Shown here piece by piece: positions 25,808 to 42,372 of a stretch of DNA of 64,000 bases (position 1 is its first letter; each line of letters opens with the position of its first letter). A program made the position numbers and the translations under genes. The stretch comes from Galbibacter sp. BG1 (GTDB lineage: Bacteria; Bacteroidota; Bacteroidia; Flavobacteriales; Flavobacteriaceae): the NCBI RefSeq assembly GCF_013391805.1, contig NZ_CP058364.1, positions 372,501 through 436,500 on the forward strand, read 5' to 3'. The notes below the pieces were generated by a model. It was not told the origin of the DNA. It saw only the letters and a list, made by a program, of their open reading frames with translations, and made no database searches.

Positions 25808-27286
25808 ATGAAGCCAATTTACATCCTACTCATTATTGCCGCTTACTTCGGTGTTTTAATTTTAATTTCCTTTTTAACCAGTAAAGATGAAGAAAGTAAC
25901 GACAATTTTTTTAAGGCAAATAGACAATCCCCTTGGTATGTAGTAGCTTTTGGAATGATTGGCGCCTCCCTGAGTGGGGTGACATTTATTTCGGTTCCCG
26001 GTTGGGTCGAGGAATCTAAATTTGGCTATATGCAGGTAGTATTTGGTTACATAATAGGCTACCTTATTATAGGTACTGTTCTACTCCCTCTCTATTATAA
26101 ATTAAACCTTACCTCCATTTATACCTATCTTGAAAAAAGGTTTGGAAATAACAGTTACAAAACTGGTGCTTCATTTTTCTTGTTGTCTAGAATTGTAGGT
26201 GCCAGCTTTCGGCTTTTTCTAGTGGCCAATGTTTTACAGGTAATTATATTTAACCAAATGGGCGTTCCTTTTTGGGCTACAGTTACGCTTACCATTATTT
26301 TAATTTGGTTGTATACCTTTAAAAGCGGAATTAAAACCATAGTGTGGACCGACACTCTCCAAACACTTTTTATGTTAATTGCCCTCGGGGTGGCCATTGT
26401 TACCGTTTACAACGATTTAAATATTGGAGAGGAAAGTTTGGTGAATTACATCTCCTCCAGCGAGCTTTCCCAAATATTCTTTTTCGATGATGTTAAAAGC
26501 GCAAATTATTTCTGGAAACAGTTTATATCCGGAGCATTTATCGCAGTGGTAATGACAGGTCTGGACCAAGATATGATGCAGAAAAACCTTACCTGTAGAT
26601 CCCTAAAGGATGCACAAAAGAATATGTTTTGGTTTACCATTGTATTAACCGTTGTAAACTTTATCTTTTTGTGTTTAGGTTTATTAATGACCATCTATGC
26701 CCAGCAAAACGGTATCGATGCCCATAAAGACGATCTTTTTGCGGTACTGGCCAAAGATTACTTGGGAATAGCCGTTTTTATTTTCTTTTTAATCGGACTC
26801 ATAGCTGCAGCCTACAGTAGTGCCGACAGTGCCCTAACTTCATTGACAACATCTTTTAGTGTGGATATCTTAAACATTGAACAATACGAAGAAAAACAAC
26901 AAATTAAAATAAGAAAGCGCACCCATGTGGCTTTTTCCTTATTGTTGATATTAGTAATTATCGCCTTTAAATACATTATTCAAAACGAAAGTGTAATCGC
27001 TAAGCTCTTTGTTTTTACAGGCTATACCTATGGCCCGCTACTTGGCCTTTATAGCTTCGGACTCTTCACCAAACTAAAGGCTAACGACACCTTTATACCA
27101 ATGGTAGCCATATTGGCTCCAGTAGTATCGTATGCCATTAGCTATTACAGCAATGCTTATTTTGATTTCGATTTTGGCTTTTTTGTACTGATCCTTAACG
27201 GAGCACTTACCTTTCTAGGCTTGTTAATAATATCCAGAAAACCGACACCAGCAGAACGAGAGTTAATTTTTATTACGGAAAACTAA
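25808..27286 (+). CDS. Sodium:solute symporter (SSS family)
   Basis: A 492-residue inner-membrane transporter with about 13 hydrophobic helices, the usual LeuT-fold SSS layout. Recognisable parts: FFKANRQSPWYVVAFGMIGASLSG (unwound first helix of the core), GLDQDMMQKNLTCRS, and AAYSSADSALTSLTTSF, which includes the conserved Na2-site Ser residues. The substrate (sugar, amino acid, or sialic-acid-like) cannot be decided. It stands alone between recR and HicAB. Confidence 0.9.
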   Translation: MKPIYILLIIAAYFGVLILISFLTSKDEESNDNFFKANRQSPWYVVAFGMIGASLSGVTFISVPGWVEESKFGYMQVVFGYIIGYLIIGTVLLPLYYKLNLTSIYTYLEKRFGNNSYKTGASFFLLSRIVGASFRLFLVANVLQVIIFNQMGVPFWATVTLTIILIWLYTFKSGIKTIVWTDTLQTLFMLIALGVAIVTVYNDLNIGEESLVNYISSSELSQIFFFDDVKSANYFWKQFISGAFIAVVMTGLDQDMMQKNLTCRSLKDAQKNMFWFTIVLTVVNFIFLCLGLLMTIYAQQNGIDAHKDDLFAVLAKDYLGIAVFIFFLIGLIAAAYSSADSALTSLTTSFSVDILNIEQYEEKQQIKIRKRTHVAFSLLLILVIIAFKYIIQNESVIAKLFVFTGYTYGPLLGLYSFGLFTKLKANDTFIPMVAILAPVVSYAISYYSNAYFDFDFGFFVLILNGALTFLGLLIISRKPTPAERELIFITEN

Positions 27287-28607: not shown

Positions 28608-31073
28608 ATGAAATCAATTTTTATGTTGTGCATGGCATTGTTATCGGCCATCACTTATTCTCAGAACAGCGTACCGAATACTAGTTTTGCCAAGATCGGT
28701 AGTATCACAGGAATTATCATCGACAAAAACACCCAAGAGCCCATTCCCTATGCCACTGTAATGGTAAAACAGGAAGGGGCTACGGTACAGGGCGGCATTA
28801 CCGAAGATAATGGGGCGTTTTTTTTAAAAGATCTTGAAGAAGGCACCTACCAATTTGAAGTGCAATTTATAGGCTACACATCCTACTCTAAAAGCGTTAC
28901 CATTTCTAAAAGCGACCGAAAAGTAGACATGGGAACCATTTCTCTAGAGGAAAATGTTACCGAACTGGAAGGTGTCGATGTGGTGGCCGAGCGCTCCAGC
29001 ATTGAGCAAAAAATAGACCGAAAGGTGGTAAATATAGGAAAAGACCTCACTACACAGGGGCCAACGGCCAGCGATATTATGAACAATATCCCTTCGCTAA
29101 ATGTAGACCAACAAACAGGGGAGCTATCCATGCGTGGAAACTCCAACGTAAGGGTTATGGTAGATGGAAAACTCTCCAACGTTCCCGTAGCTCAGCTTTT
29201 GAAACAAATCCCTTCCACTTCCATTAAAAAAATCGAGCTTATTACCAACCCGTCCGCCAAATACAACCCAGAAGGGATGAGCGGACTCATAAATATTGTA
29301 CTTTATAAGGATGCCAATATTGGTTTCAACGGAAATGCCAACGTTGGGGTGTCTTACGAGGAAGAGGCTAAGTTTAATACGTCATTGGATTTGAATTACC
29401 GTCGCGGGAAATTCAACATGTACGGAAACGTGGGTACCAACATTGGTAAATACGTAAATAACGGGCAGGTAGAAAGGTTGGACGACCCAGTAACTAATTT
29501 TGATGAAAACCAAATACAGGATTTCTACTTTTTCAACAACAACAAATCGTATCTCTATAAAATTGGGGTGGACTATTTCTTAAATGAAAAGAACACCATT
29601 TCTTTCTTTACCAATCAGAATATATTTGATGGTAAGGGCCTTGGAGATACCGATATTATAAATTTTGACCCTTCCGTAGGAGATTCAGAACAACTTTTCA
29701 ACAACGTAAACTCCAACCAAAACGAACAATACAATTTTGATTACAAACGGGACTTCGATAAAGAAGGGCATAACATAGAACTGGAGGTAGATTATAGCAA
29801 TTTTACCAACGATGAAGACGCCAATTTTAATTTTGAAGGCGAAAATACGCAACCCGATTACATGGATTTTGTAGATACCAGAAGACAGCAAACCATTGCC
29901 AACCTAGATTATGTTAACCCAATTAACGAAAAAGGAAAATTAGAGCTTGGTTTGGAGGCTCGTTTGTTTGAAACCGATGTAGACTACTCCTCTACCGGAT
30001 TTACATTTAACAGTGGCGGACAGTTAATCCCCATCCCAGATACCGAATTTGTTTACGGAATGGATATCTACTCGGCCTATGCCACCTATGGACAAAATTT
30101 CGAGAAATGGAGTTACCAGGTAGGGGCCCGTTTTGAAGATGTAAGCGTAAAGGCAGATACCAATAGCGTGCGCAGTTTTACAGACGATTACAAGCAACTG
30201 TACCCATCGGCATTTGTTACGTACACACCCTCGGAGAAAAACCAGTTCCAGGTAAGTTTTAGCCGCCGTGTGGACAGACCGGGGTTAACACAGGTAAACC
30301 CAATTAGGGAGTGGAGCACGCCACAGATATCCTCTTTTGGAAACCCAAGTTTGCTTCCGCAGTTTACCAACTCCTACGAAACTAACTATACAAGAAGGCT
30401 GGAGCATGGTAGCCTTACGTTCGGGCTGTACTACCGTACCATTAAAGACGAGATTAACCGTGCGCTATATGTAGACCGCTTAGACCTTACCAAGCAAATA
30501 CTTACCTATGATAATTTCGACGATACCGAAGCCTATGGGGTGGAAGTTTCATTAAACTATAAGCCTTTGGAATGGTGGAGCATAAACGGAAGTTTTGATC
30601 TCTATTCCCAAACGCAACGCGGTTTAACCGAGATTTTGGCACCTAGTGAAAACCCAACGGTAGACGATATTATTGAAGAAGAAGTAGAAGTAGACAACGT
30701 AGCCTACAATTTTAGACTAAATAACAACTTTAATGTAACCAAGAAAATTAGTCTATCGCTATTTGGTTTTTACCGCGGGGAAAATAGGGGCATACAAATG
30801 AATGCCAAAGCGATGTACTTTGTAAACACCGGTGCCCGCTACAGTTTTGCCGATGGCAAAGGAACCTTTAGCCTTAATTTTAATGATATTTTTAATACCA
30901 TGCAGTTCCGTTTTGATGGCGAACGCCCTTACGAACAACGCGGCGCCTTTAACTGGGAAAGTAGAACTATTTATGCCGGTCTTTCTTACCGATTTGGTAG
31001 TGGTAAAAACCGAAAAGCACAACGTAAAAACCGTGATAGCAATACCAAAGAAGGCGGCGGAGGCATTATGTAA
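28608..31073 (+). CDS. TonB-dependent receptor, outer-membrane beta-barrel family
   Basis: An 821-residue outer membrane protein. A signal peptide (about 1-18) is followed by a carboxypeptidase-D-like regulatory domain (about 30-115; GIIIDKNTQEPIPYATVMV), a plug (about 130-225; ASDIMNNIPSLNVD, MRGNSNVRVMVDG), and a large barrel ending LSYRFG. A basic, Gly-rich tail follows (about 795-821), so it does not end in the usual aromatic residue. No SusD-like partner is adjacent, so it belongs to the orphan OMP_b-brl_3 group rather than to a glycan utilisation locus. Substrate unknown. Confidence 0.9.
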   Translation: MKSIFMLCMALLSAITYSQNSVPNTSFAKIGSITGIIIDKNTQEPIPYATVMVKQEGATVQGGITEDNGAFFLKDLEEGTYQFEVQFIGYTSYSKSVTISKSDRKVDMGTISLEENVTELEGVDVVAERSSIEQKIDRKVVNIGKDLTTQGPTASDIMNNIPSLNVDQQTGELSMRGNSNVRVMVDGKLSNVPVAQLLKQIPSTSIKKIELITNPSAKYNPEGMSGLINIVLYKDANIGFNGNANVGVSYEEEAKFNTSLDLNYRRGKFNMYGNVGTNIGKYVNNGQVERLDDPVTNFDENQIQDFYFFNNNKSYLYKIGVDYFLNEKNTISFFTNQNIFDGKGLGDTDIINFDPSVGDSEQLFNNVNSNQNEQYNFDYKRDFDKEGHNIELEVDYSNFTNDEDANFNFEGENTQPDYMDFVDTRRQQTIANLDYVNPINEKGKLELGLEARLFETDVDYSSTGFTFNSGGQLIPIPDTEFVYGMDIYSAYATYGQNFEKWSYQVGARFEDVSVKADTNSVRSFTDDYKQLYPSAFVTYTPSEKNQFQVSFSRRVDRPGLTQVNPIREWSTPQISSFGNPSLLPQFTNSYETNYTRRLEHGSLTFGLYYRTIKDEINRALYVDRLDLTKQILTYDNFDDTEAYGVEVSLNYKPLEWWSINGSFDLYSQTQRGLTEILAPSENPTVDDIIEEEVEVDNVAYNFRLNNNFNVTKKISLSLFGFYRGENRGIQMNAKAMYFVNTGARYSFADGKGTFSLNFNDIFNTMQFRFDGERPYEQRGAFNWESRTIYAGLSYRFGSGKNRKAQRKNRDSNTKEGGGGIM

Positions 31074-31151: not shown

Positions 31152-31235
31152 TTTTTCAAAAAATAAACCAACCTAAACACCATAGTAGCAGCAACGAGTA
31201 GTTGATGGTTAGTGTATAAAAGTTGCTGTTAACGG

Positions 31236-31272
31236 GAAGTCCGAAATCTTTTTAAGATTTCGGGCTTTTTTA
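31236..31272 (+). terminator. Rho-independent terminator downstream of TonB receptor
   Basis: AAGTCCGAAATC-TTTTTAA-GATTTCGGGCTT stem (one G-T pair) followed by T6, about 165 bases after the receptor stop. Confidence 0.85.
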
Positions 31273-31391: not shown

Positions 31392-31700
31392 TTGAAAAAA
31401 TTTCTTTTAACCCTTGTTATTCTAATTTCCAGTTGCAGCACTACCATAGATAAAAACGGGATTTTTGAGAAACAAGAATATTCAAAGCACAATTTAGAAT
31501 TTTTAAACACATCCATTTTTCTACCTAATGAATATGTTGAAATTGAAATCTCTAAATTAGAAGATTTTCTATTTAATCCGGACAATGAAGAAGTGCCGTT
31601 TAACATGGTGGAAATGTGGATGAGAAATATTGAATCTCCGAACAGTGGAATTGCCATTTTCAAAAAAATTTCAGATCCATTGAATTTTCTTGTCATATAA
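31392..31700 (+). CDS. Short lipoprotein, possibly the 5' half of a frameshifted gene
   Basis: A 102-residue predicted lipoprotein starting at TTG (MKKFLLTLVILISSCS; lipobox LISSC, Cys about 15). The mature part (EYVEIEISKLEDFLFNPDNEEV...) is of no family I recognise. It stops at 31698-31700 while a second open frame covering the next 300 bases begins inside its end, so the original protein was possibly about 205 residues. If intact, it is a short surface lipoprotein of unknown role. It begins the AT-rich accessory stretch. Confidence 0.55.
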   Translation: MKKFLLTLVILISSCSTTIDKNGIFEKQEYSKHNLEFLNTSIFLPNEYVEIEISKLEDFLFNPDNEEVPFNMVEMWMRNIESPNSGIAIFKKISDPLNFLVI

Positions 31701-32007
31701 AAAATTCCCTCGTCACATACCTATAAAATATGGTACTTCAAGAGTGCTGCGTTCTATAATTAAAGAACATCTAGATCGTGATGCAGCCCTGTATAACCTC
31801 AAATACCATATTGATAAAAGTATTTTTGAGAGCTATAAGGGTGTAGGAATATATAAGTTTGAATTTTCAAGCGATTTATCGGGGGTGGCCTCAAAGAACT
31901 TGAGATATTTTGTAGATACAAATAATCAAACTATAGACATCCAAGCACTGCATGTAGGAGATGATGAAGACTTTGATAAGATTGTTAAAAACCTAGAAGT
32001 TTACTAG
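31690..32007 (+). pseudogene. Probable 3' half of the frameshifted lipoprotein gene
   Basis: A 105-residue reading with no ATG; the first available start is TTG at 31690, which overlaps the end of the upstream frame by 11 bases. The frame is closed upstream by TGA at 31681. The content (IKYGTSRVLRSIIKEHLDRD... YKFEFSSDLSGVASKNLRYFV) looks like a real folded domain. A single shift between 31684 and 31697 would join it to the lipoprotein; it could alternatively be a coupled second gene. Confidence 0.45.
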
Positions 32008-32155
32008 TACCTAACTAATGACTAGATGTAATAAGCTACTATTCAATTCTAAGACTAGAATTGATATACCGATAAAACCATTTTTTATTTTGCAAAATTT
32101 AAAAGGTCTCTTATAGAAATAATATTTAGAACTATTTAGAAAACAGATAATTTGT

Positions 32156-32163
32156 TAGATTTG
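32156..32163 (+). promoter_or_regulatory. -7 box in leader A
   Basis: TAGATTTG (TAnnTTTG). Transcription from about 32170 would give a leader of roughly 55 bases before the esterase ATG. Confidence 0.5.
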
Positions 32164-32197
32164 GAAGAGGGATAAACGTTAGTGTGTTTATATGGTA

Positions 32198-32211
32198 GTT
32201 GTGCACAATTA
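32198..32211 (+). repeat. 5' arm of esterase-flanking inverted repeat
   Basis: GTTGTGCACAATTA, 14 bp before the esterase start. It matches the reverse complement of 33609-33622 at 12 of 14 positions. Confidence 0.75.
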
Positions 32212-32225
32212 AAACGAAATGCTAA

Positions 32226-33611
32226 ATGAGAAAAATACTAATAACAATTTTACTACTATCATCTATAATTTCATTCGGACAAAATGATAGACTTGATAAA
32301 GGTAGAGTAACATTAGATTATGAGATTAAATATATAACTTCTGAGCATTACCCAAATGAAGAACGAATTCTAAGAATATTTTTACCTAAATATTACGATT
32401 CATCTATAAAATACCCAGTTGTTTACACATTAGATGGACAGACATTATTTGATGCGGTTATCAAAAATGTTTCGGTATTACAAGACAAAACTTTTGATGA
32501 CAACAATATAATTCCCGAATGTATAACTGTTGCTATCGACAATAATAATCGAAGTAGAGACTTAACACCGAATTTAGGATTTAATTCCAACTTAGAACTT
32601 GGGGATTTTAAAGAAGGGCCCAAAACATTCTATAATATTCTCAACCAAGAAATAGTTCCATTCATTGATAGTAATTATTCTACTTCTGGGTACAATGTAA
32701 TAATAGGACATTCTGATTCTGGGCATTTTGTTACTCAACTATACCTTAAAAACGATAATCCATTCGATGGCATTATTGCACTATCAATAAATGATGGCGG
32801 TAACTATTTTAGGCGACATATTCCTGAAAAACTTAAACAAGAAGAATCTAAACTTTTATTTATTGGTTATGGTAATATGGACGTTGAATTTAATGGATTA
32901 GGATACTTTTTAGATTCGCTAAAACTTGACAATAATAATCTTATGATCAAAAAGTATAATGCCAATCATATTCAGATGCCATTTGTTAGTTTATGTGACG
33001 CATTAAGATATGTTTTTTCGGATTACAGATTTTATGATAAGCTAATTGATGAGACATTCAATAAAGAATTTGATTATCAAAATTTTACAAAAAAATATAA
33101 AAAAAATATTCTTAAAAAATATGGTGTGAAAACGGAAATAGGTTATGATGTTGATTACTTGTTAAACAAAGCATTAGTGACTGATAATACAACCGTATTT
33201 CACAATATTCTTGACGATATTGACCGAACTAAAATTTTGCAACTACAATTTAGGTTTTGGTACTGTAATGAATTTAACCAAAACGAAAGGGCAAAGAAAT
33301 ACTTGTATCAAATGCTGAATAGTGATGATGAAACGGACAAACTTATATTCTTTGCGAATTTGGATGACCAGTACTTGAACTTTTTTGTAAAGAAACTAAA
33401 ACAACCATTGGAGTTCATTGATTTTGTTGAGCAAGCTAAAGTGAAATGGTCTGAATACACATTGGAATTTAACTATCTGATTTTAAAAACTTTGGTCAAT
33501 GAAAAAATTAAATCATTCAAGAAAAGGGAATACTACAAATACTGTGAACAAAATTTTAAAGAAAATAGGTATTTCGACATTAAATATTTAAAAAAACTAA
33601 ACAAAAAATAA
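32226..33611 (+). CDS. Secreted esterase-like alpha/beta hydrolase
   Basis: A 461-residue exported protein: signal peptide (cleavage near SFGQ, residue 18) and a putative esterase-D-type hydrolase domain (about 30-275). Ser is in GHSDSGHF (about residue 164), an unusual nucleophile elbow with Asp-Ser where GxSxG normally has x-Gly. A late His (YNANHIQMP) could complete the triad. A C-terminal helical region of about 180 residues, Lys/Phe/Tyr-rich, has no family I know. AT-rich. It sits between the arms of a gene-specific inverted repeat, whose 3' arm includes the stop codon. Confidence 0.75.
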   Translation: MRKILITILLLSSIISFGQNDRLDKGRVTLDYEIKYITSEHYPNEERILRIFLPKYYDSSIKYPVVYTLDGQTLFDAVIKNVSVLQDKTFDDNNIIPECITVAIDNNNRSRDLTPNLGFNSNLELGDFKEGPKTFYNILNQEIVPFIDSNYSTSGYNVIIGHSDSGHFVTQLYLKNDNPFDGIIALSINDGGNYFRRHIPEKLKQEESKLLFIGYGNMDVEFNGLGYFLDSLKLDNNNLMIKKYNANHIQMPFVSLCDALRYVFSDYRFYDKLIDETFNKEFDYQNFTKKYKKNILKKYGVKTEIGYDVDYLLNKALVTDNTTVFHNILDDIDRTKILQLQFRFWYCNEFNQNERAKKYLYQMLNSDDETDKLIFFANLDDQYLNFFVKKLKQPLEFIDFVEQAKVKWSEYTLEFNYLILKTLVNEKIKSFKKREYYKYCEQNFKENRYFDIKYLKKLNKK

Positions 33612-33622
33612 CTGTGCACAGC
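33609..33622 (+). repeat. 3' arm of esterase-flanking inverted repeat
   Basis: TAACTGTGCACAGC; its first three bases are the esterase stop codon. Reverse complement matches the 5' arm at 32198-32211 (12 of 14). Confidence 0.75.
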
Positions 33623-33752
33623 AATGGCTCTTATAAAAAGCACTTGCCCAGTCCTCCAAAGTTAATATTTAATTATAAAATTGGCCCAACTGAAACGTAT
33701 CGTTTATCAAATAACCTACGTTTCTCATATTAACCGTTATATGCAGCTAAAA

Positions 33753-34352
33753 ATGAACATGGAAATTTTAAAAACAAAAATACAGCTTGAAAATGACAGA
33801 GTATTATTATTGCCTTTTGAGCATTTGAGAAATCAAGAACTGAAGGAAATAATCTTTTGCGGAGAAATTTGGAAATATATGGGAATGGACATAAAAACCG
33901 AATTAGATTTTGAAAACTACATAACGAATACTATTGAGCAAAAAGCCAATGGAACTTGTTATCCGTTTCTGGTTATCGACAAACTTAATAACCGAGTTGC
34001 AGGTAGCACTAGATATGGGTATTTGAATAGTGCAAGTCAAAAATGCGAAATCGGCTGGACTTGGTATGGAACAGAATTTCAAGGAACAGGATTGAATAAG
34101 GCTTGTAAGTATGAACTGTTAAATTTTGGATTTGAAACTATCGGATTCAGAAGAATTCAGTTTAGTGCCGACCAAGAAAATTTAAGGTCTCAAAAAGCAA
34201 TCGAAAAATTAGGAGCAAAAAAAGAGGGCGTTTTTAGAAATAATTACATCGGGCTGAAAGGAGAAAGTAGAAACGATGTCTATTTCAGTATAATAAAAGA
34301 AGACTGGCCCTTGCTTAAAGCAGAGCATTTTACGGAATTTGGACAAGACTGA
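33753..34352 (+). CDS. GNAT N-acetyltransferase, RimJ/RimL type
   Basis: About 199 residues. A RimJ/RimL-like acetyltransferase that transfers acetyl from acetyl-CoA to an amino group. Visible: NNRVAGSTRYGYLN (beta strand 4), EIGWTWYGTEFQGTGLNKAC (acetyl-CoA pyrophosphate loop), RRIQFSADQENLRSQKAIEKLGAKKEG (the Asn-Ser/Gln helix). The substrate is unknown: it could be a small molecule or a protein N-terminus. ATG at 33753 is chosen because upstream codons lie in a flank motif (CGTTATATGCAGC) shared in type with other single-gene units here. Confidence 0.82.
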   Translation: MNMEILKTKIQLENDRVLLLPFEHLRNQELKEIIFCGEIWKYMGMDIKTELDFENYITNTIEQKANGTCYPFLVIDKLNNRVAGSTRYGYLNSASQKCEIGWTWYGTEFQGTGLNKACKYELLNFGFETIGFRRIQFSADQENLRSQKAIEKLGAKKEGVFRNNYIGLKGESRNDVYFSIIKEDWPLLKAEHFTEFGQD

Positions 34353-34570
34353 AAAACATGCAGAACGCAAAAGCCAGTTATCTACTATGACTATAGCAAA
34401 TAGGGCGTTCCAAATATTAAGAGAGTTCTATGGTCATTTAAAACATCCCCAAATCGTTGATTTGGCTTTTAGATAAAAAGGTGAAAACAAAACGCAAAAG
34501 GTTTGGCTTAATGAATAATCCGATAGGTTTACGTATTTTTAAATGCTACGTTTGATATACCAGACTATTT

Positions 34571-34582
34571 GTAAACATTTAA
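34571..34582 (+). repeat. 5' arm flanking the two-helix membrane protein gene
   Basis: GTAAACATTTAA, 11 bases before the ATG. It matches the reverse complement of 35060-35071 at 11 of 12 positions. AT-rich and partly self-complementary, so weaker than the other pairs. Confidence 0.5.
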
Positions 34583-34592
34583 AACCGATATT

Positions 34593-35063
34593 ATGACAAA
34601 ATGGAATTTTAAATTAAAAAATAGCCCAAAAAAACTCGGTGAAAAAATAGATTCCTCACTAAACACAGTTAATGGACTAGTATTTCATTTGAATCGAGAT
34701 AAAAATGAATCCATAAATTTTAAAATCAGGAAAAGAATTCTATATCCTTGGTACTTATTTTTTTTAAACAGTCTTGTCGTTAATGGAAAATTATCAAAAA
34801 CAAAAATTGAAAATGAGTCTAACGTAGAAATTTCTTTTAAACAGCATTTTTTATGGATAGCCGTGATATTGGCCGATATGATATTAGGATTGTCCTTATT
34901 AATTGTCACGGTTTCTGGAAAGGACAACAATGTTTACACCTATTTAATCGGAACTTTAATATTAGCCATTGGAGTTATTTTGTGGATTAGAACACAAAGA
35001 AAATATGAACAAAATATCCAAGAATATAAAACATTGATTTCTCAAGTTTTGGGAGTCCATTAA
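34593..35063 (+). CDS. Hypothetical two-helix membrane protein
   Basis: A 156-residue protein of no family I recognise. The first 80 residues are polar and basic (TKWNFKLKNSPKKLGEKID..., KIRKRILYPWYLF), followed by two hydrophobic helices (about 88-108 LWIAVILADMILGLSLLIV and 117-135 YLIGTLILAIGVILWI) and a short basic tail. The layout suggests a cytoplasmic N-terminal domain tethered to the inner membrane. It resembles small orphan genes common in flavobacterial accessory regions. Confidence 0.55.
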   Translation: MTKWNFKLKNSPKKLGEKIDSSLNTVNGLVFHLNRDKNESINFKIRKRILYPWYLFFLNSLVVNGKLSKTKIENESNVEISFKQHFLWIAVILADMILGLSLLIVTVSGKDNNVYTYLIGTLILAIGVILWIRTQRKYEQNIQEYKTLISQVLGVH

Positions 35064-35071
35064 ACGTTTAC
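35060..35071 (+). repeat. 3' arm flanking the two-helix membrane protein gene
   Basis: TTAAACGTTTAC, containing the TAA stop (35061-35063). Reverse complement of 34571-34582 with one mismatch. Confidence 0.5.
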
Positions 35072-35150
35072 CCATAATGTATTGAAGCATACTGAATCTT
35101 GAATTAATGCCATCAAATGACGGATTTAATACCATTTAAAAAACAAAAAG

Positions 35151-35615
35151 ATGAAAAGTTTATATAAAAGTATATCGGCGATCTTAATCTGTTGCATGTT
35201 TTTATTCAACAGTTGCTCCAAAGACGACAGCCAAATCACCTATGATTTAACAGGAAATTGGAAAGTAGCGTACTATATTGAGAACGGGATAAAAATTACA
35301 AAAACTAAAGAAAATACTTGGTTAGACATTAACAATGGAGATATTACCGCGAGTTTTGCCGAACCTCAAAATGGCGGGGTAGGAAGTATTTCAGGAATTA
35401 AGGTCACTAATAGCTACAGTGGTGAATTCCGAGCCCAAACAAACGGAGAAATATCAATAGGGCAAGTTTTTCAAACAGAAGCGAATGAACCTGAATGGAC
35501 TGAATTATATAAAATAAGCGAGGCCGAGTACTACGAAATTAAAAATTCCAAACTTCACATTTATTACAATGGGAGGAAGAATGTTATTGTACTTGAAAAA
35601 ATTAGGCCTTTTTAA
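35151..35615 (+). CDS. Small lipoprotein, lipocalin/META-like
   Basis: A 154-residue predicted lipoprotein (lipobox LFNSC, Cys about 22; SKDDS spacer). The mature domain starts YDLTGNWKVAYYIENG, a lipocalin-like first strand, and continues through GEFRAQTNGEISIGQVFQT and WTELYKISEAEYYEI, features shared by META- and lipocalin-like envelope domains of Bacteroidota. A single-domain surface or periplasmic protein; ligand unknown. Its ATG is 87 bases after the previous gene. The flanks carry a weak CCATT(T)AAAAA / TTTTTAATGG pairing. Confidence 0.65.
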   Translation: MKSLYKSISAILICCMFLFNSCSKDDSQITYDLTGNWKVAYYIENGIKITKTKENTWLDINNGDITASFAEPQNGGVGSISGIKVTNSYSGEFRAQTNGEISIGQVFQTEANEPEWTELYKISEAEYYEIKNSKLHIYYNGRKNVIVLEKIRPF

Positions 35616-35756
35616 TGGCCGAATTAAAAATATTAAACAAGGCAAATACATACAAAATGTTTATTTTTACCTAAAAGACAGCAGACTTTAGCAATAATGT
35701 TGATACTTCGTTAAAAAGAATTATTTTTTATACTCCACAGAAAACAGATAATTTGG

Positions 35757-35764
35757 TAGATTTG
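35757..35764 (+). promoter_or_regulatory. -7 box in leader B
   Basis: TAGATTTG (TAnnTTTG), at the same place in the leader as in copy A. Confidence 0.5.
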
Positions 35765-35798
35765 AAAGGGAAATAAACGCAATTGTGTTTATATGGTA

Positions 35799-35812
35799 GT
35801 TGTACCACATTA
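35799..35812 (+). repeat. 5' arm of hydrolase-flanking inverted repeat
   Basis: GTTGTACCACATTA, 12 bases before the ATG. It matches the reverse complement of 36677-36690 at 13 of 14 positions. Confidence 0.8.
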
Positions 35813-35824
35813 AAACACTGGATA

Positions 35825-36679
35825 ATGAAGACGTTTTTTATTAAAAGTGTAAAAATATTAGGTAGCTTATTTATACTTTTTTATCTAGCTATGTGTATTT
35901 GGTTCTATTATAGGCAAGAATCATTCATATTCATGAATCCAGTAAAACTAGATACTAATTTCAACTACGCTTTTCAAGGGAATTTTGAAGAAATTAATAT
36001 TAATGTAGATGACAGTATTAAACTCAATTCTTTATTATTTAAATCAGACATGCAACCACCTAAAGGTATCATTTTCAATTTGAAGGGTGCTGGAGGTAAT
36101 ATTTCAAATCAAGACGAAGCTGCAACTATATACAATGAGGAGGGTTACGATTTCTACGTAATGGATTTCAGAGGATATGGCAAAAGTCAAGGTGCTTATA
36201 ATAATGATTTGCAAATGTATAATGACGGCCAAGCTGCTTATGATAAATTATTAGAAAGAGGATATAAGGAAGATGACATCATTATTATTGGGGTTTCATT
36301 AGGTACAGGAGTAGCAAGTTATCTCGCCAAAAATAACAGTCCCGGACAACTCATCCTGATCTCTCCTTATTATAGTATGAAAGATTTAGCAAGGAATTTA
36401 ACTTTACCGAATCTAAAATATTTACAATACTTACCGACAGATTTACTAATCCGATATAATCTGGACAACGCAAAACATATAAAAAACATAAAAGCGCCAG
36501 TAGCAATTTTTCATGGTACAGATGACAGGCTCATATATTATGGTTCATCACTTAAACTTAAAGATTGTTTTAAACCAAAAGATACATTAATTACAATAAA
36601 AGGTGGTATCCATAATGGTTTTGAAAGCAGACCAGATGTAATTGAAGGAATTAAAGAAGTAATAAATGGATTAAAATAA
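35825..36679 (+). CDS. Membrane-anchored alpha/beta hydrolase (BEM46/ABHD13-like)
   Basis: About 284 residues: one N-terminal membrane helix (about 9-28), then an alpha/beta hydrolase domain facing the periplasm. The nucleophile is in GVSLGTG (about residue 157), an acid in HGTDDRLI (about 235), and the His in GGIHNGF (about 263), a complete triad. GYDFYVMDFRGYGKSQG is the typical strand-loop before the catalytic core. Substrate unknown; homologues are acyl hydrolases. ATG at 35825 is used because the upstream in-frame start would lie inside the repeated leader. Confidence 0.85.
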   Translation: MKTFFIKSVKILGSLFILFYLAMCIWFYYRQESFIFMNPVKLDTNFNYAFQGNFEEININVDDSIKLNSLLFKSDMQPPKGIIFNLKGAGGNISNQDEAATIYNEEGYDFYVMDFRGYGKSQGAYNNDLQMYNDGQAAYDKLLERGYKEDDIIIIGVSLGTGVASYLAKNNSPGQLILISPYYSMKDLARNLTLPNLKYLQYLPTDLLIRYNLDNAKHIKNIKAPVAIFHGTDDRLIYYGSSLKLKDCFKPKDTLITIKGGIHNGFESRPDVIEGIKEVINGLK

Positions 36680-36690
36680 CGTGGTACAAC
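36677..36690 (+). repeat. 3' arm of hydrolase-flanking inverted repeat
   Basis: TAACGTGGTACAAC; begins with the gene's stop codon. Reverse complement of 35799-35812 with one mismatch. Confidence 0.8.
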
Positions 36691-37050: not shown

Positions 37051-38664
37051 ATGGAAAGCGAACAACCACAATATGTGGAGGCGTTGGTTTCCAGTGGAGA
37101 TTCCATCGTTTATTTGGGAAGCCTTAAAACTGCCAAAGAAAACTATAAAAAGGCAAAGGATCATAACCTTAAAGGAACCACTCTTTTACCTGCATTTTTA
37201 GATGGTCATGGCCATATCTTTAATGTTGGTTTGGTGTCGCTTTTTGCTAACCTCCTCCCACCTCCCGATGGTCCTGGCGCCGATTTTAATACTATTGTAA
37301 ACACTTTAAACGAATTTAAAGATAGCGAAGACGGTAAATGGTCGGTAAATAAGTTTGGGTGGATTGTAGGGAACGGCTACGACGATTCGCAACTAAAGGA
37401 AAAAGATCATCCAAAAGCGGCAGATTTAGATAAAGTAAGCGAGGAACTTCCGGTATTAATTTTACATCAATCGGGGCATTTAGGGGTGGTAAACTCCAAA
37501 GGGTTGGAAGCAATGGGGTGGACTTCCAAAGATACACCAGACCCAAAAGAAGGAAAACTGAGAAGAAATTCCGATGGAACACCGAATGGGGTCATGGAAG
37601 AAAATGCATTTTTTACGGTACTGGGCGAAATTATGTCTGAAGCAGATGATGAAGTTAATGCAAAAGCGGTTAAATTGGGACAAGCGCAATATGCTAAAAA
37701 TGGCTATATGACCGCCCAAGAAGGCAGAACCACTCCCGGACAGGTTAATGCCATTATAAAAGAAGCTGAAGCGGGAAAATTATATTTAGATGTAGTTTCC
37801 TACCCCGATATGCGCATTAAAGGCGCCTACGATTTATTGGACGGAAATTATTACAACCACAAGCATCAATATAAAAACAAATTTAGAATCGGTGGGGTAA
37901 AATTAACATTAGATGGCTCGCCACAAGGAAAAACAGCATGGCTTACACAACATTACCATATTCCGCCACCGGGGGAAGATTCAGACTACAAAGGGTATCC
38001 TATTATGGCAGACTCCCTTGCGAATAGATATGTACACGATGCCTTTAAAAATAAATGGCAAATTTTGTGTCACACCAACGGCGACGCGGCTATCGATCAA
38101 TATTTAAATGCCGTTGAAAAAGCCCTAGAAAATTATAATTACGATGATCATAGAACCGTAATTGTACACGGGCAGACCATCAGGAAAGATCAGATTGAAA
38201 AAGCGGCCCAGCTCAATGTGGATGCTTCCTTGTTTCCCATGCATACTTTCTATTGGGGCGATTGGCATGTAGAATCGGTATTGGGGCACCCAAGGGCAGA
38301 TTATATATCCCCTTGTGTGGACGCGTTAAATGCCGGACTCAACATTACTTCCCATCACGATGCACCAGTAACCTTTCCAAATTCCATGCGTGTTTTAGAT
38401 GCCACTGTAAACCGCGTGACCCGAAGTGGAGTGATTTTGGGTCCAGAACAACGCCTTTCCGCTTACAAGGGATTGAAAACCTTAACGATATGGGCGGCCA
38501 ATCAGTATTTTGAAGAAAACGAGAAAGGAAGTTTAAAGGTTGGTAAAAATGCTGATTTTGTGATTTTAGATAAAAATCCGCTAAAAGTAGACCCGTTAAC
38601 CATACACGATATTAAAGTGTTAGAATCCATAAAAGACGGCAAAAACGTTTACAGCATAAATTAA
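37051..38664 (+). CDS. Amidohydrolase-3 family protein (YtcJ-like), frameshifted near its 5' end
   Basis: 537 residues of a metal-dependent amidohydrolase. Metal His pair in LDGHGH (about residue 50), a Lys in GGVKLTLDGSPQGKTAW, His in HTNGDAAID, and the Asp in SHHDAPV; the C-terminal NADFVILDKNPL closes the composite beta sandwich. Codons immediately upstream in this frame read GGDIIT, the normal start of this family, but the lipoprotein signal lies in another frame: one base appears to be missing at the CCC run near 37030-37032. The intact protein would be about 580 residues. As it stands it lacks its export signal. Confidence 0.8.
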   Translation: MESEQPQYVEALVSSGDSIVYLGSLKTAKENYKKAKDHNLKGTTLLPAFLDGHGHIFNVGLVSLFANLLPPPDGPGADFNTIVNTLNEFKDSEDGKWSVNKFGWIVGNGYDDSQLKEKDHPKAADLDKVSEELPVLILHQSGHLGVVNSKGLEAMGWTSKDTPDPKEGKLRRNSDGTPNGVMEENAFFTVLGEIMSEADDEVNAKAVKLGQAQYAKNGYMTAQEGRTTPGQVNAIIKEAEAGKLYLDVVSYPDMRIKGAYDLLDGNYYNHKHQYKNKFRIGGVKLTLDGSPQGKTAWLTQHYHIPPPGEDSDYKGYPIMADSLANRYVHDAFKNKWQILCHTNGDAAIDQYLNAVEKALENYNYDDHRTVIVHGQTIRKDQIEKAAQLNVDASLFPMHTFYWGDWHVESVLGHPRADYISPCVDALNAGLNITSHHDAPVTFPNSMRVLDATVNRVTRSGVILGPEQRLSAYKGLKTLTIWAANQYFEENEKGSLKVGKNADFVILDKNPLKVDPLTIHDIKVLESIKDGKNVYSIN

Positions 38665-40086: not shown

Positions 40087-40135
40087 CTAAAACGGAACGT
40101 CATCTTCGTCTAAGTCGTTGTTCATGGAGCTGCCA
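40087..40135 (-). repeat. Direct repeat of dnaB 3' end, distal copy
   Basis: 49 bp identical to 40831-40879 except one base (T for G at 40111), and in the same orientation. It starts exactly at a TAG stop on the minus strand and encodes GSSMNNDLDEDDVPF, the DnaB C-terminus with Phe changed to Leu. Confidence 0.95.
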
Positions 40136-40176
40136 GATACATCAAATTGAAACTGTCTTTTCTTAAAAATTTTTAT

Positions 40177-40206: not shown

Positions 40207-40506
40207 ATGTATTTTATTGAGAAAACCGTCGAGTTTGACAAATGGATTAAAAAACTAAAGGACTTTAGAGCCAAATCAAAAATTCTTTTTAGAATTCAGA
40301 AACTAGAAAGCGACGAACATTTTGGAGATTGTAAATCTGTAGGCGATGGAATTCGAGAAATTCGAATAAATTTTGCCAAAGGATATAGGGTTTATTTCAA
40401 AGAAAAAGATGGCAAAATTATCATCTTATTAATCGGTGGAAATAAATCAACCCAACAGAAAGATATTATAAAAGCCAAGGAAATCTGGAGAAAATTAAAC
40501 AGTTAA
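40207..40506 (+). CDS. RelE/ParE-superfamily toxin, HigB/Gp49-like
   Basis: A 99-residue toxin of the phage-derived Gp49-like/HigB family (addiction module killer protein), a ribosome-dependent mRNA interferase fold. FDKWIKKLKDFRAKSKILFRIQKLE is the N-terminal helical pair, GDGIREIRINFAKGYRVYFKE the central sheet, and GGNKSTQQKDIIKAKEI the C-terminal part characteristic of this subfamily. The toxin gene comes first and the antitoxin follows by one base. Confidence 0.88.
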   Translation: MYFIEKTVEFDKWIKKLKDFRAKSKILFRIQKLESDEHFGDCKSVGDGIREIRINFAKGYRVYFKEKDGKIIILLIGGNKSTQQKDIIKAKEIWRKLNS

Positions 40507-40507
40507 A

Positions 40508-40792
40508 ATGAAAACCTCAAAATTTGATATAGCCGATTATTTAGACAACGAAGAAATGATTGCAGAATACCTTAATACAGTGTTGGAAGAAGGTAATAGC
40601 AATGATTTAGTGGTGGCAATAGGCCATGTAGCCAAAGCTATTGGTATGACAAAAATAGCCGAAAAAACAGGAATGAGTAGACCCAGTCTTTATAAAGCTT
40701 TGTCTGATGGAAACAAACCACAATTTGGCACTATTGTTAAAGTTCTAAAAGCTATTGGCGGACAAATACAGGTTAAACCTACGACGGTATAA
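40508..40792 (+). CDS. HigA-like antitoxin (addiction module antidote)
   Basis: A 94-residue antitoxin with an Xre-type helix-turn-helix (about 42-85; AKAIGMTKIAEKTGMSRPSLYKALSDGNKPQF). The N-terminus, FDIADYLDNEEMIAEYLNTVLEEG, is typical of the TIGR02684 antidote family that partners Gp49-like toxins. It would neutralise the toxin and repress the promoter. Ends 38 bases before the dnaB stop. Confidence 0.88.
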   Translation: MKTSKFDIADYLDNEEMIAEYLNTVLEEGNSNDLVVAIGHVAKAIGMTKIAEKTGMSRPSLYKALSDGNKPQFGTIVKVLKAIGGQIQVKPTTV

Positions 40793-40830: not shown

Positions 40831-40879
40831 CTAAAACGGAACGTCATCTTCGTCGAAGTCGTTGTTCATGGAGCTGCCA
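40831..40879 (-). repeat. Direct repeat of dnaB 3' end, in-gene copy
   Basis: The last 49 bases of dnaB including its TAG stop. Partner of 40087-40135 (48 of 49 identical). Confidence 0.95.
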
Positions 40880-42372
40880 AAAGCTTCATCTGCACTTGGA
40901 AGATCTTTGGTTGCAAACGGGTTTTCATCCCCATCATTCATTTTGGACTGGAACTCAAACGGTGAATCGAAATCGTCTAGGTTATCGAATTTACCAAGGT
41001 GACCGATAAACTTCAAACGAATGTTCTCCAAACCACCATTACGGTGTTTCGCAACGATAAACTCCCCTTGCCCTTGTGTTGGACTGCGTTCTTCATCGTC
41101 CCACTCTTCTATTTTATAGTATTCCGGTCGGTAAATAAAGGACACGATATCGGCATCCTGCTCAATCGCACCCGATTCACGTAGATCGGAAAGCAATGGC
41201 CTTTTACTTCCCCCACGGGTTTCTACTGCCCGCGACAACTGGGATAAAGCAATAACAGGCACATTAAGTTCTTTTGCTAAGGCTTTTAAGTTTCTGGAAA
41301 TGGTAGAAATTTCCTGCTCTCGGTTCCCTCCCTTTTGCGAGCCTCCAGCCGTCATTAACTGCAAATAATCTATTATAATCATTCTAATACCGTGCTGCGA
41401 AGCCAATCGGCGTGCTTTCGCCCGCAAGTCGAATATGGAAAGAGACGGGGTATCGTCTATAAAAAGTGGTGCTGTTTCTAGGGATTTTACTTTCACGTTT
41501 AATTGTTCCCATTCGTGTTTTTCCAATTTTCCGGTACGTAACTTTTCTGAAGAAAGTCCGGTTTCCGAAGAAATCAAACGGGTGATCAACTGTACGGAAG
41601 ACATCTCCAAGGAGAAGAACGCCACTGGAATATTGGAATTTACAGCTATATTTCTAGCCATCGATAGGGTTAATGCGGTTTTACCCATACCCGGTCTCGC
41701 AGCCACAATAATTAAATCACTGGGTTGCCAACCAGAGGTTAATTTATCCAATTTGTCGAAACCAGAAGGGATCCCACTTAAACCTTCCTTATTGGAAATC
41801 TCTTCAATCTTCTTTTTTGCCTGAATAACTAAACTCTGTGCCGTTTCCGAAGATTTTTTAATATTTCCTTGGGTAACTTCGTATAGTTTAGCCTCGGCAT
41901 TGTCCAAAAGATCGAAAACATCGGTACCTTCATCATAGGCATCCTCAATAATCTCACTGGAAATTTTTATGAGGCTACGCTGTATGTATTTTTGAAGAAT
42001 AATACGTGCGTGGAACTCTATATGCGCTGAAGATGATACTTTTTTGGTTAACTGAATGAGGTAAAAGTCACCTCCAACGGATTCCAACCTTTTATTTTTC
42101 TTCAACTGCGCAGAAACTGTTAATAAGTCAATAGGCTCAGAAGTTTCAAATAGCTGAACCACTGCCTCATAGACATATTTATGCGCGTCTTTATAAAAAG
42201 CATCGGGGTGTAGAATGTCTATAATTTCATCAACACCTTTCTTGTCGATCATCATCGCACCCAACACAGCTTCCTCTAAATCAATGGCTTGCGGAGGTAT
42301 TTTACCTTTTTCTAGCTGAATTACATTAGATTTATCTATTTTAATTCCTTGTATTGGGTTTATTTTTTCCAT
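40831..42372 (-). CDS. dnaB: Replicative DNA helicase DnaB
   Basis: A 513-residue hexameric replicative helicase. N-terminal DnaB domain (about 20-130; PQAIDLEEAVLGAMMID), linker, then RecA-like ATPase (about 195-460) with AARPGMGKTALTLSMA (Walker A), FFSLEMSS, IIIDYLQLMTAGG (Walker B) and SQLSRAVETR. No intein. The C-terminal 50 residues are an acidic tail ending NNDFDEDDVPF, which looks like the tip of single-stranded DNA-binding protein. Its 3' end is duplicated 744 bases downstream, on the far side of a toxin-antitoxin pair. Confidence 0.97.
   Translation of the reverse strand: MEKINPIQGIKIDKSNVIQLEKGKIPPQAIDLEEAVLGAMMIDKKGVDEIIDILHPDAFYKDAHKYVYEAVVQLFETSEPIDLLTVSAQLKKNKRLESVGGDFYLIQLTKKVSSSAHIEFHARIILQKYIQRSLIKISSEIIEDAYDEGTDVFDLLDNAEAKLYEVTQGNIKKSSETAQSLVIQAKKKIEEISNKEGLSGIPSGFDKLDKLTSGWQPSDLIIVAARPGMGKTALTLSMARNIAVNSNIPVAFFSLEMSSVQLITRLISSETGLSSEKLRTGKLEKHEWEQLNVKVKSLETAPLFIDDTPSLSIFDLRAKARRLASQHGIRMIIIDYLQLMTAGGSQKGGNREQEISTISRNLKALAKELNVPVIALSQLSRAVETRGGSKRPLLSDLRESGAIEQDADIVSFIYRPEYYKIEEWDDEERSPTQGQGEFIVAKHRNGGLENIRLKFIGHLGKFDNLDDFDSPFEFQSKMNDGDENPFATKDLPSADEAFGSSMNNDFDEDDVPF

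Follow-up and report, generated by a model that had tools for sequence, protein, structure and literature searches.

The question raised by this locus is why single, unrelated genes should each be enclosed by an inverted repeat of their own. The locus is a cluster of five genes within a 64,000-nt stretch of the Galbibacter sp. BG1 chromosome (NZ_CP058364.1, positions 372,501 to 436,500; hereafter the window). The original prediction saw there two hydrolase genes behind a shared promoter leader, bounded by gene-specific inverted arms, and proposed either mobile gene cassettes or an mRNA panhandle. Our analyses make it very probable that these genes are stray cassettes of an integron-like system that is encoded elsewhere in the same chromosome and is seen in many flavobacteria and their relatives.

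Three of the five genes (genes 1, 3 and 5, Table 1) are enclosed by such arms, gene 3 more weakly than the other two. The arms can be written as 13-nt boxes, GTT-N7-A-TT on the 5' side and AA-C-N7'-AAC on the 3' side, where N7' is the reverse complement of N7. N7 is matched at 7/7 positions in genes 1 and 5 and at 6/7 in gene 3, and position 11 sets an A opposite a C in all three arm pairs. The match counts given previously (12/14, 13/14 and 11/12) were right, and in both genes with a leader (1 and 5) the 3' arm begins in the TAA stop codon. The claim that the arms are not due to chance also held when both strands of the 64 kb were searched for the 10-mer AAC-N7' that partners each leader, as each such 10-mer occurs once, at the stop codon of that leader's own gene; arithmetic with equal base frequencies gives p ~4e-5 per gene for a 10-nt match within a 40-nt flank. 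The exact form (GTT/AAC ends, A.C) was matched twice in the 324 kb that comprise the window and its surroundings, once by the gene 5 unit and once within coding sequence (window 26405-26659), the latter surely by chance. By inspection, no GTT-N7-ATT / AAC-N7'-AAC arms were found around the gene at 35151-35615 or around the GNAT gene, to which a looser flank had been attributed. Blind scans for inverted arms around open reading frames (ORFs) were abandoned because they were swamped by AT-rich noise.

Arms of the same form bound an entire array in this chromosome. A tyrosine recombinase of 374 residues is encoded on the minus strand (2,944,838-2,945,962), and directly downstream of it, on the same strand, a cassette array runs from 2,944,794 down to 2,931,251. 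A scan for exact arms, which is blind to decayed units, found 19 cassettes, among which N7 takes 10 different forms; three gaps, two measuring 560 nt and the third 796 nt, are filled by other DNA. When all 16 base combinations at position 11 were counted over 100 kb with N7 exact, 25 matches were A.C and none was Watson-Crick, the rest being the mirror reading of the same matches; the surplus over 19 cassettes comes from pairings among copies of one cassette. Allowing one mismatch in N7 over the same 100 kb gave 26 A.C matches, 25 of them still without mismatch and the 26th outside the array. The sites between cassettes mostly measure ~143 nt and contain complementary inner boxes, for example GTATATAGCTCATAGC with GCTACGAGCCATATAC. 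Four copies of one array cassette match one another perfectly over ~730 nt, and the match stops abruptly at CGTT at either end. Visual inspection of the array showed HigB/HigA-like pairs, a gene in several copies, and transposase-like inserts. A 184-bp cassette without any ORF longer than 44 aa is present in six copies and one gene cassette in four (L082, L113).

The same signature accompanies this integrase in other genomes. We hand-picked regions from 40 relatives of the integrase, on long contigs where possible, and took their downstream side only. Over these 40 regions, 100 arm pairs were A.C and 4 had other base combinations, with at least one A.C pair in 25/40. The first 20, from the same family, gave 81 A.C versus 4 other, with at least one pair in 15/20 (15/16 among regions of at least 13 kb), and the second 20, mostly distant (1 of the same genus, 7 of the same class, 12 of the same phylum), gave 19 versus 0, with at least one pair in 10/20. 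All A.C pairs lay on the integrase strand. At E 1e-60 the integrase was found in 88 of 149 family genomes, nearly all of different genera, and in 58 of 296 genomes of a phylum sample, Galbibacter sp. BG1 being included in both counts; some matches are shorter proteins lacking the N-terminal extension described below. None of nine viral candidates held a relative. The attC core AACAMCGTRTATAATT has 467 copies in 81/149 family genomes, compared with one copy of a reversed control pattern, and it goes with the integrase (62/88 genomes with a match versus 19/61 without, Fisher p 2.5e-6). For at least 11 minus-strand matches of the integrase in the family genomes, the contig stops no more than 350 nt past the 3' end of the match, as if array repeats broke the assemblies there.

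Comparison of individual units supports the proposal of mobile cassettes, as repeated or shared units break at the arm. Two genomes (G250 and G282) have in common a cassette together with its site, at 97.5% identity across 1061 nt, while the adjoining integrases are 41% identical. The first bases of the unit are GTT and its right end lies just beyond ACC|GTT, with both next units beginning with GTTAGC, so that the break falls where recombination would be expected; a short stretch upstream (53 nt) aligns as well, at 81%. Similarly, a cassette of Galbibacter sp. BG1 has a counterpart, 90% identical across 785 nt, in a relative of the same genus (G006), where its neighbours differ. These unit boundaries suggest that the integrase may catalyse excision and insertion. 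None of the window genes was among the 119 cassettes collected.

After integration of an integron cassette, the R' end of its own attC forms its 5' end. We propose that a cassette of the present system would run from TT-N7-ATT (its own R' box) through the gene to AAC-N7'-AAC (the R'' box) and then an attC-like stem, the last bases of the cassette being CG. A XerA/IntI-like recombinase would act on the cassette's own attC, folded as the bottom strand, by cutting within CG|TT, and the cut end would be joined to attI or to another attC. The cassette-specific part of the stem would thus remain with the gene, flanking it on both sides and co-varying. On the bottom strand the constant A.C becomes a T.G wobble, which would favour folding of that strand and may set the orientation. 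We folded 43 distinct sites with DNA parameters after rejoining each to the 13 bases with which its own cassette begins. In 43/43 the bottom strand surpassed the top strand in stability (mean -29.4 versus -25.4), and in 41/43 it was more stable than when joined to the bases of the next cassette.

The leader of genes 1 and 5 had been predicted to be a shared promoter. The sharing is real, as the two copies are 52/60 identical directly before the arm and 79% identical over 98 nt, and both carry TAGATTTG, a candidate promoter element. Since 4/41 related integrases have this hairpin-spacer-GTT motif right at their stop, the leaders are nevertheless better read as attI-like sites that include a candidate promoter. 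This type 2 pattern (hairpin ATAAAC..GTTTAT/C, 5-7 nt, GTT) has 6 copies on both strands of the 1.28 Mb making up the 41 integrase regions, and for 4 of these copies an integrase stop is no more than 40 nt away. On both strands of the window it has exactly two, the two leaders, and in 260 kb of the chromosome beside the window it has one, probably a chance match. A type 1 site, ATAA(N)C-N-AGTT, lies behind the integrase stop in 16/41 loci, 5 to 198 nt past it, a figure given without a background count. TAnnTTTG is a Bacteroidetes promoter element, and it occurs near the integrase stop in 12/41 loci, likewise without a background count. The window leaders, no longer beside an integrase, would express the first cassette behind them.

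The 17-nt core of the leader (at most 1 mismatch) is present in 6/60 genomes, Galbibacter sp. BG1 included. Among the five others, three matches (L007-L009) had no cassette by inspection, and two genomes (G038 and G048) had leader-like sites. In G048, a scripted scan of 349 kb found 14 leaders and 18 conserved 3' tails that form 11 leader-tail pairs. The original prediction had staked itself beforehand on arms being complementary in other copies of the leader, and here the result was in its favour: own pairs were more complementary than permuted ones (summed score 65, p = 0.0013, 11 pairs, probably wrong long-range pairs with own scores of 2-9 included), and some pairs have changed on both sides, e.g. 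TTGG with CCAA. The leaders and the tails of 200-300 nt are unusually conserved in this genome (C23, L016-L032), and a recurring short ORF (MYRHYTFLKIYRE...) follows some cassette tails. A pattern scan of genome contigs gave 7 loci, of which only that of Adhaeribacter soli (L035) was true by inspection. In this species two cassettes stand behind the leader, with attC-like stems separating and following them, and the integrase match has E 3.2e-70. The sole viral match of the pattern showed no such cassette unit, and the leader had no plasmid match.

The integrase itself is XerA/IntI-like (PF13495 and PF00589) and lacks the IntI additional domain. The Galbibacter protein scores 218.5 bits against TIGR02249, below the 265-bit cut-off for IntI. 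At the position of the additional domain, the catalytic domain measures 46-51 residues in 75/75 new integrases (a count that leaves out repeat entries from a single genome and five ORFs that were second or broken), 88 residues in 34/34 IntI and 52-54 residues in two Xer proteins of Galbibacter sp. BG1. The five catalytic residues and the tyrosine are kept in 75/75. In a tree, IntI forms one clade (100/99) and the new set lies on one side of a branch (96/74), with only two Xer rows present, both long-branched. An N-terminal extension of at least 71 residues is found in 64/75 when the first start codon is taken. The N-terminal piece of the Galbibacter integrase alone had no Pfam match; an alignment of this domain from 14 members matched DUF5710 in 5 (best E 8.7e-4) and HARP in 2 (best E 7.6e-5), and the best PDB match (E 0.0038) was a chain named a-iTHR-201. 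A HARP-like nature of the domain is thus a weak lead from sequence comparison.

Perhaps the window genes are instead ordinary IntI cassettes left by an integron since lost from the genome, the XerA-like recombinases being bystanders. Canonical IntI above cut-off is common in other classes of the phylum (105/395 genomes as sampled, far above the frequency suggested by PMC9024848). Moreover, complementary arms at cassette distance appeared in 20 canonical IntI regions of the same phylum, with 264 pairs of 7 nt near versus 42 at control distance and 152 versus 20 for 8 nt, counts uncorrected for region ends, which lower the control. The enclosing-arm geometry is thus ordinary for integrons, and the earlier view that it sets these arms apart from integron attC sites had to be dropped. 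However, the 108 IntI-positive genomes listed include one of the window's class and none of its order or family, and a separate IntI search left 0/5 above the cut-off. The A.C signature followed by TT/AA was counted 123 times in 42 XerA-like loci (660,651 bp) versus once in the 20 IntI regions (367,184 bp), and the Galbibacter array starts right behind the XerA-like gene. We therefore consider a lost IntI integron very unlikely.

Less likely still is the mRNA panhandle, in which the arms would pair in the transcript and regulate its stability or translation without any mobility. The arms do lie at start and stop codons and would fold in RNA. However, the constant A.C is unpaired on the coding strand and becomes a T.G wobble on the opposite DNA strand; forms with a compensating change hardly occur, as seen in the 100 A.C pairs versus 4 others, and no G.T pair occurs on the integrase strand in the 40 regions. 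With DNA parameters, the top strand never formed at least 11 of 13 arm pairs, versus 14/43 bottom strands, and the units move whole. Chance inverted repeats beside a duplicated promoter segment might be expected in an AT-rich genome rich in short inverted repeats, where blind scans gave no general excess, but this explanation has next to no probability given partners found once per 64 kb at the right stop codon and the same form in 25 of 40 other integrase-linked regions, and it is refuted by the array and region scans.

Several observations weigh against the reading as stray cassettes of an integron-like system. In the window, which lies ~2.5 Mb from the integrase, only three of the five genes carry arms and two of these three have decayed ends. 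An ungapped scan of all ORF flanks in 324 kb gave 11 at a score of at least 10 versus 9.6 expected from mismatched pairs; with no general excess, the arms are visible only through their exact form. In the array, the repeated 184-bp cassettes vary more than the gene cassette copies do, and not all copies have clean right ends. Neither attI pattern was found within 200 nt of the integrase stop in 21/41 loci, that of Galbibacter sp. BG1 among them. No A.C pair was found in 15/40 integrase regions, 5 in the first set and 10 in the second; regions under 4 kb account for 4/5 of these (cut by contig ends) and 2/10, respectively. The attC core is also present in the 19 genomes of 61 without an integrase match, and G048, with its many leader-cassette units, has no integrase match at E 1e-40. 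Even on the bottom strand, at least 11 of 13 arm pairs appear in the best structure of only 14 of the 43 sites, and selecting the sites by their A.C arms has itself produced part of the strand bias. Finally, recombination activity is a deduction from sequence, as are the use of the bottom strand, the cut position, promoter activity and any role of the N-terminal domain.

Table 1. Features of the cassette cluster, in window coordinates
Feature	Position	Strand	Basis
TAGATTTG, candidate -7 promoter element, leader 1	32156..32163	+	sequence
attI-like site 1 (type 2): hairpin ATAAAC..GTTTAT + 6 nt, then GTT	32172..32197	+	pattern search
R'-like 5' arm, cassette 1, GTT-GTGCACA-A-TT (GTTGTGCACAATT)	32198..32210	+	arm comparison
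Cassette gene 1, putative esterase, 461 aa	32226..33611	+	PF00756 E 8e-16
R''-like 3' arm, cassette 1, AA-C-TGTGCAC-AGC (AACTGTGCACAGC)	33610..33622	+	N7 7/7, A.C position 11
GNAT acetyltransferase gene between cassettes, arms not demonstrated	33735..34352	+	PF13302 E 5.5e-16
Degenerate 5' arm, cassette 3 (ATTTGTAAACATT)	34567..34579	+	N7 6/7, A.C
Cassette gene 3, 156 aa, no Pfam family	34593..35063	+	Pfam search
Degenerate 3' arm, cassette 3 (AACGTTTACCCAT)	35063..35075	+	arm comparison
TAGATTTG, candidate promoter element, leader 2	35757..35764	+	sequence
attI-like site 2 (type 2)	35773..35798	+	pattern search; 52/60 identical to site 1 incl. upstream part
R'-like 5' arm, cassette 5, GTT-GTACCAC-A-TT (GTTGTACCACATT)	35799..35811	+	arm comparison + exact-pair scan
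Cassette gene 5, alpha/beta hydrolase, 284 aa	35825..36679	+	PF12146 E 2.8e-19
R''-like 3' arm, cassette 5, AA-C-GTGGTAC-AAC (AACGTGGTACAAC)	36678..36690	+	arm comparison

By inspection, no clear inner stem follows the R'' box of cassette 5, so that its right end is undefined. An empty site was sought in six relatives of the same genus and none was clean, three of the six stretches ending within 12 kb. The outer-membrane gene at 28608-31073 is kept in all six, G006 also aligns at 31166-31272, and nothing further right aligns in any of them. Just before leader 1 (31392-32007), two overlapping ORFs (102 and 105 aa) resemble one frameshift-split lipoprotein gene. The amidohydrolase to the right of the cluster (37051-38664) has a match at E 1e-60 in only 4/40 genomes, Galbibacter sp. 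BG1 included, so the right flank may itself be a recent acquisition. Further along, 58 nt that match the dnaB 3' end occur twice (91%), at 40087-40144 and 40831-40888. Between the two copies lies a toxin-antitoxin pair of RelE/HigA-like type (40207-40792, identified by eye); AT-rich inverted repeats adjoin, and the arrangement looks like an insertion at the dnaB end.

According to PMC9668308 and PMC2426708, integron integrases require an additional domain near patch III, and surveys select integrases by it. An integrase present in 88/149 family genomes would be missed by such surveys. For Bacteroidetes proper, PMC9024848 reports one complete integron found with IntegronFinder 2.0, in Salinibacter ruber. 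Among the matches listed in the open-access literature we found no publication on such a system in Flavobacteriia; PMC8618304, PMC8138268, PMC2727003, PMC8352920 and PMC8565304 were further sources. We tentatively put forward, with somewhat less than even confidence, a second kind of integron across Bacteroidota. Its XerA-derived integrase, without the IntI additional domain, would read the folded site otherwise, perhaps through a HARP-like stem-binding N-terminal domain and the constant A.C / T.G strand mark, and the system would also spread as orphan attI-promoter units hosting single cassettes. With this system one can ask, in a natural setting, whether single-strand recombination depends on the additional domain. 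It also allows cassettes to be located by a simple rule based on sequence, and hints at a large reservoir of cassette genes that the surveys do not reach.

In the terms of IntegronFinder, attC clusters without an integrase are called CALIN and an integrase without attC is called In0. The window cluster resembles the former in having cassettes without a nearby integrase (PMC9024848), but differs in having attI-like sites alongside the cassettes where no integrase is present, and in being of the XerA-like type. XerA-type recombinases (NCBIfam NF040815; PDB 5hxy, 4a8e) give the top scores for the Galbibacter integrase, 221.4 bits with a cut-off of 220 and E 6.7e-41 in the PDB. Unlike them, the new integrase is linked to cassette arrays and usually has an extra N-terminal domain; the adjoining arrays speak for a role other than Xer chromosome dimer resolution at dif.

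The closest likeness is with IntI integrons (class 1 and chromosomal; e.g. IntI4, PDB 2a3v). Both have head-to-tail, mostly one-gene cassettes as well as short gene-less ones, an R''-L''-L'-R' stem with the boundary G|TT, the cassette's own R' at its 5' end, an attI-like site ahead of the array and a bottom strand that folds better. In the new system an array adjoins the integrase in Galbibacter sp. BG1, as does at least one exact A.C pair in 25 of the 40 further regions. Its attC-like sites have AAC..GTT ends and an inner L''/L' stem, the bottom strand being favoured as judged by folding of preselected sites, and attI-like sites of type 1 or type 2 head the array, within 200 nt of the integrase stop, in the loci counted above. 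It differs in that the new integrase is ~40 residues short at the additional domain and usually carries an N-terminal extension, in that the array of Galbibacter sp. BG1 is found 3' of its integrase and on the same strand (the regions of relatives cover the 3' side), and in arms of 3+7 nt with a constant A.C followed by TT/AA. The system is integron-like by anatomy and fails the IntI definition, and its integrase is what is new.

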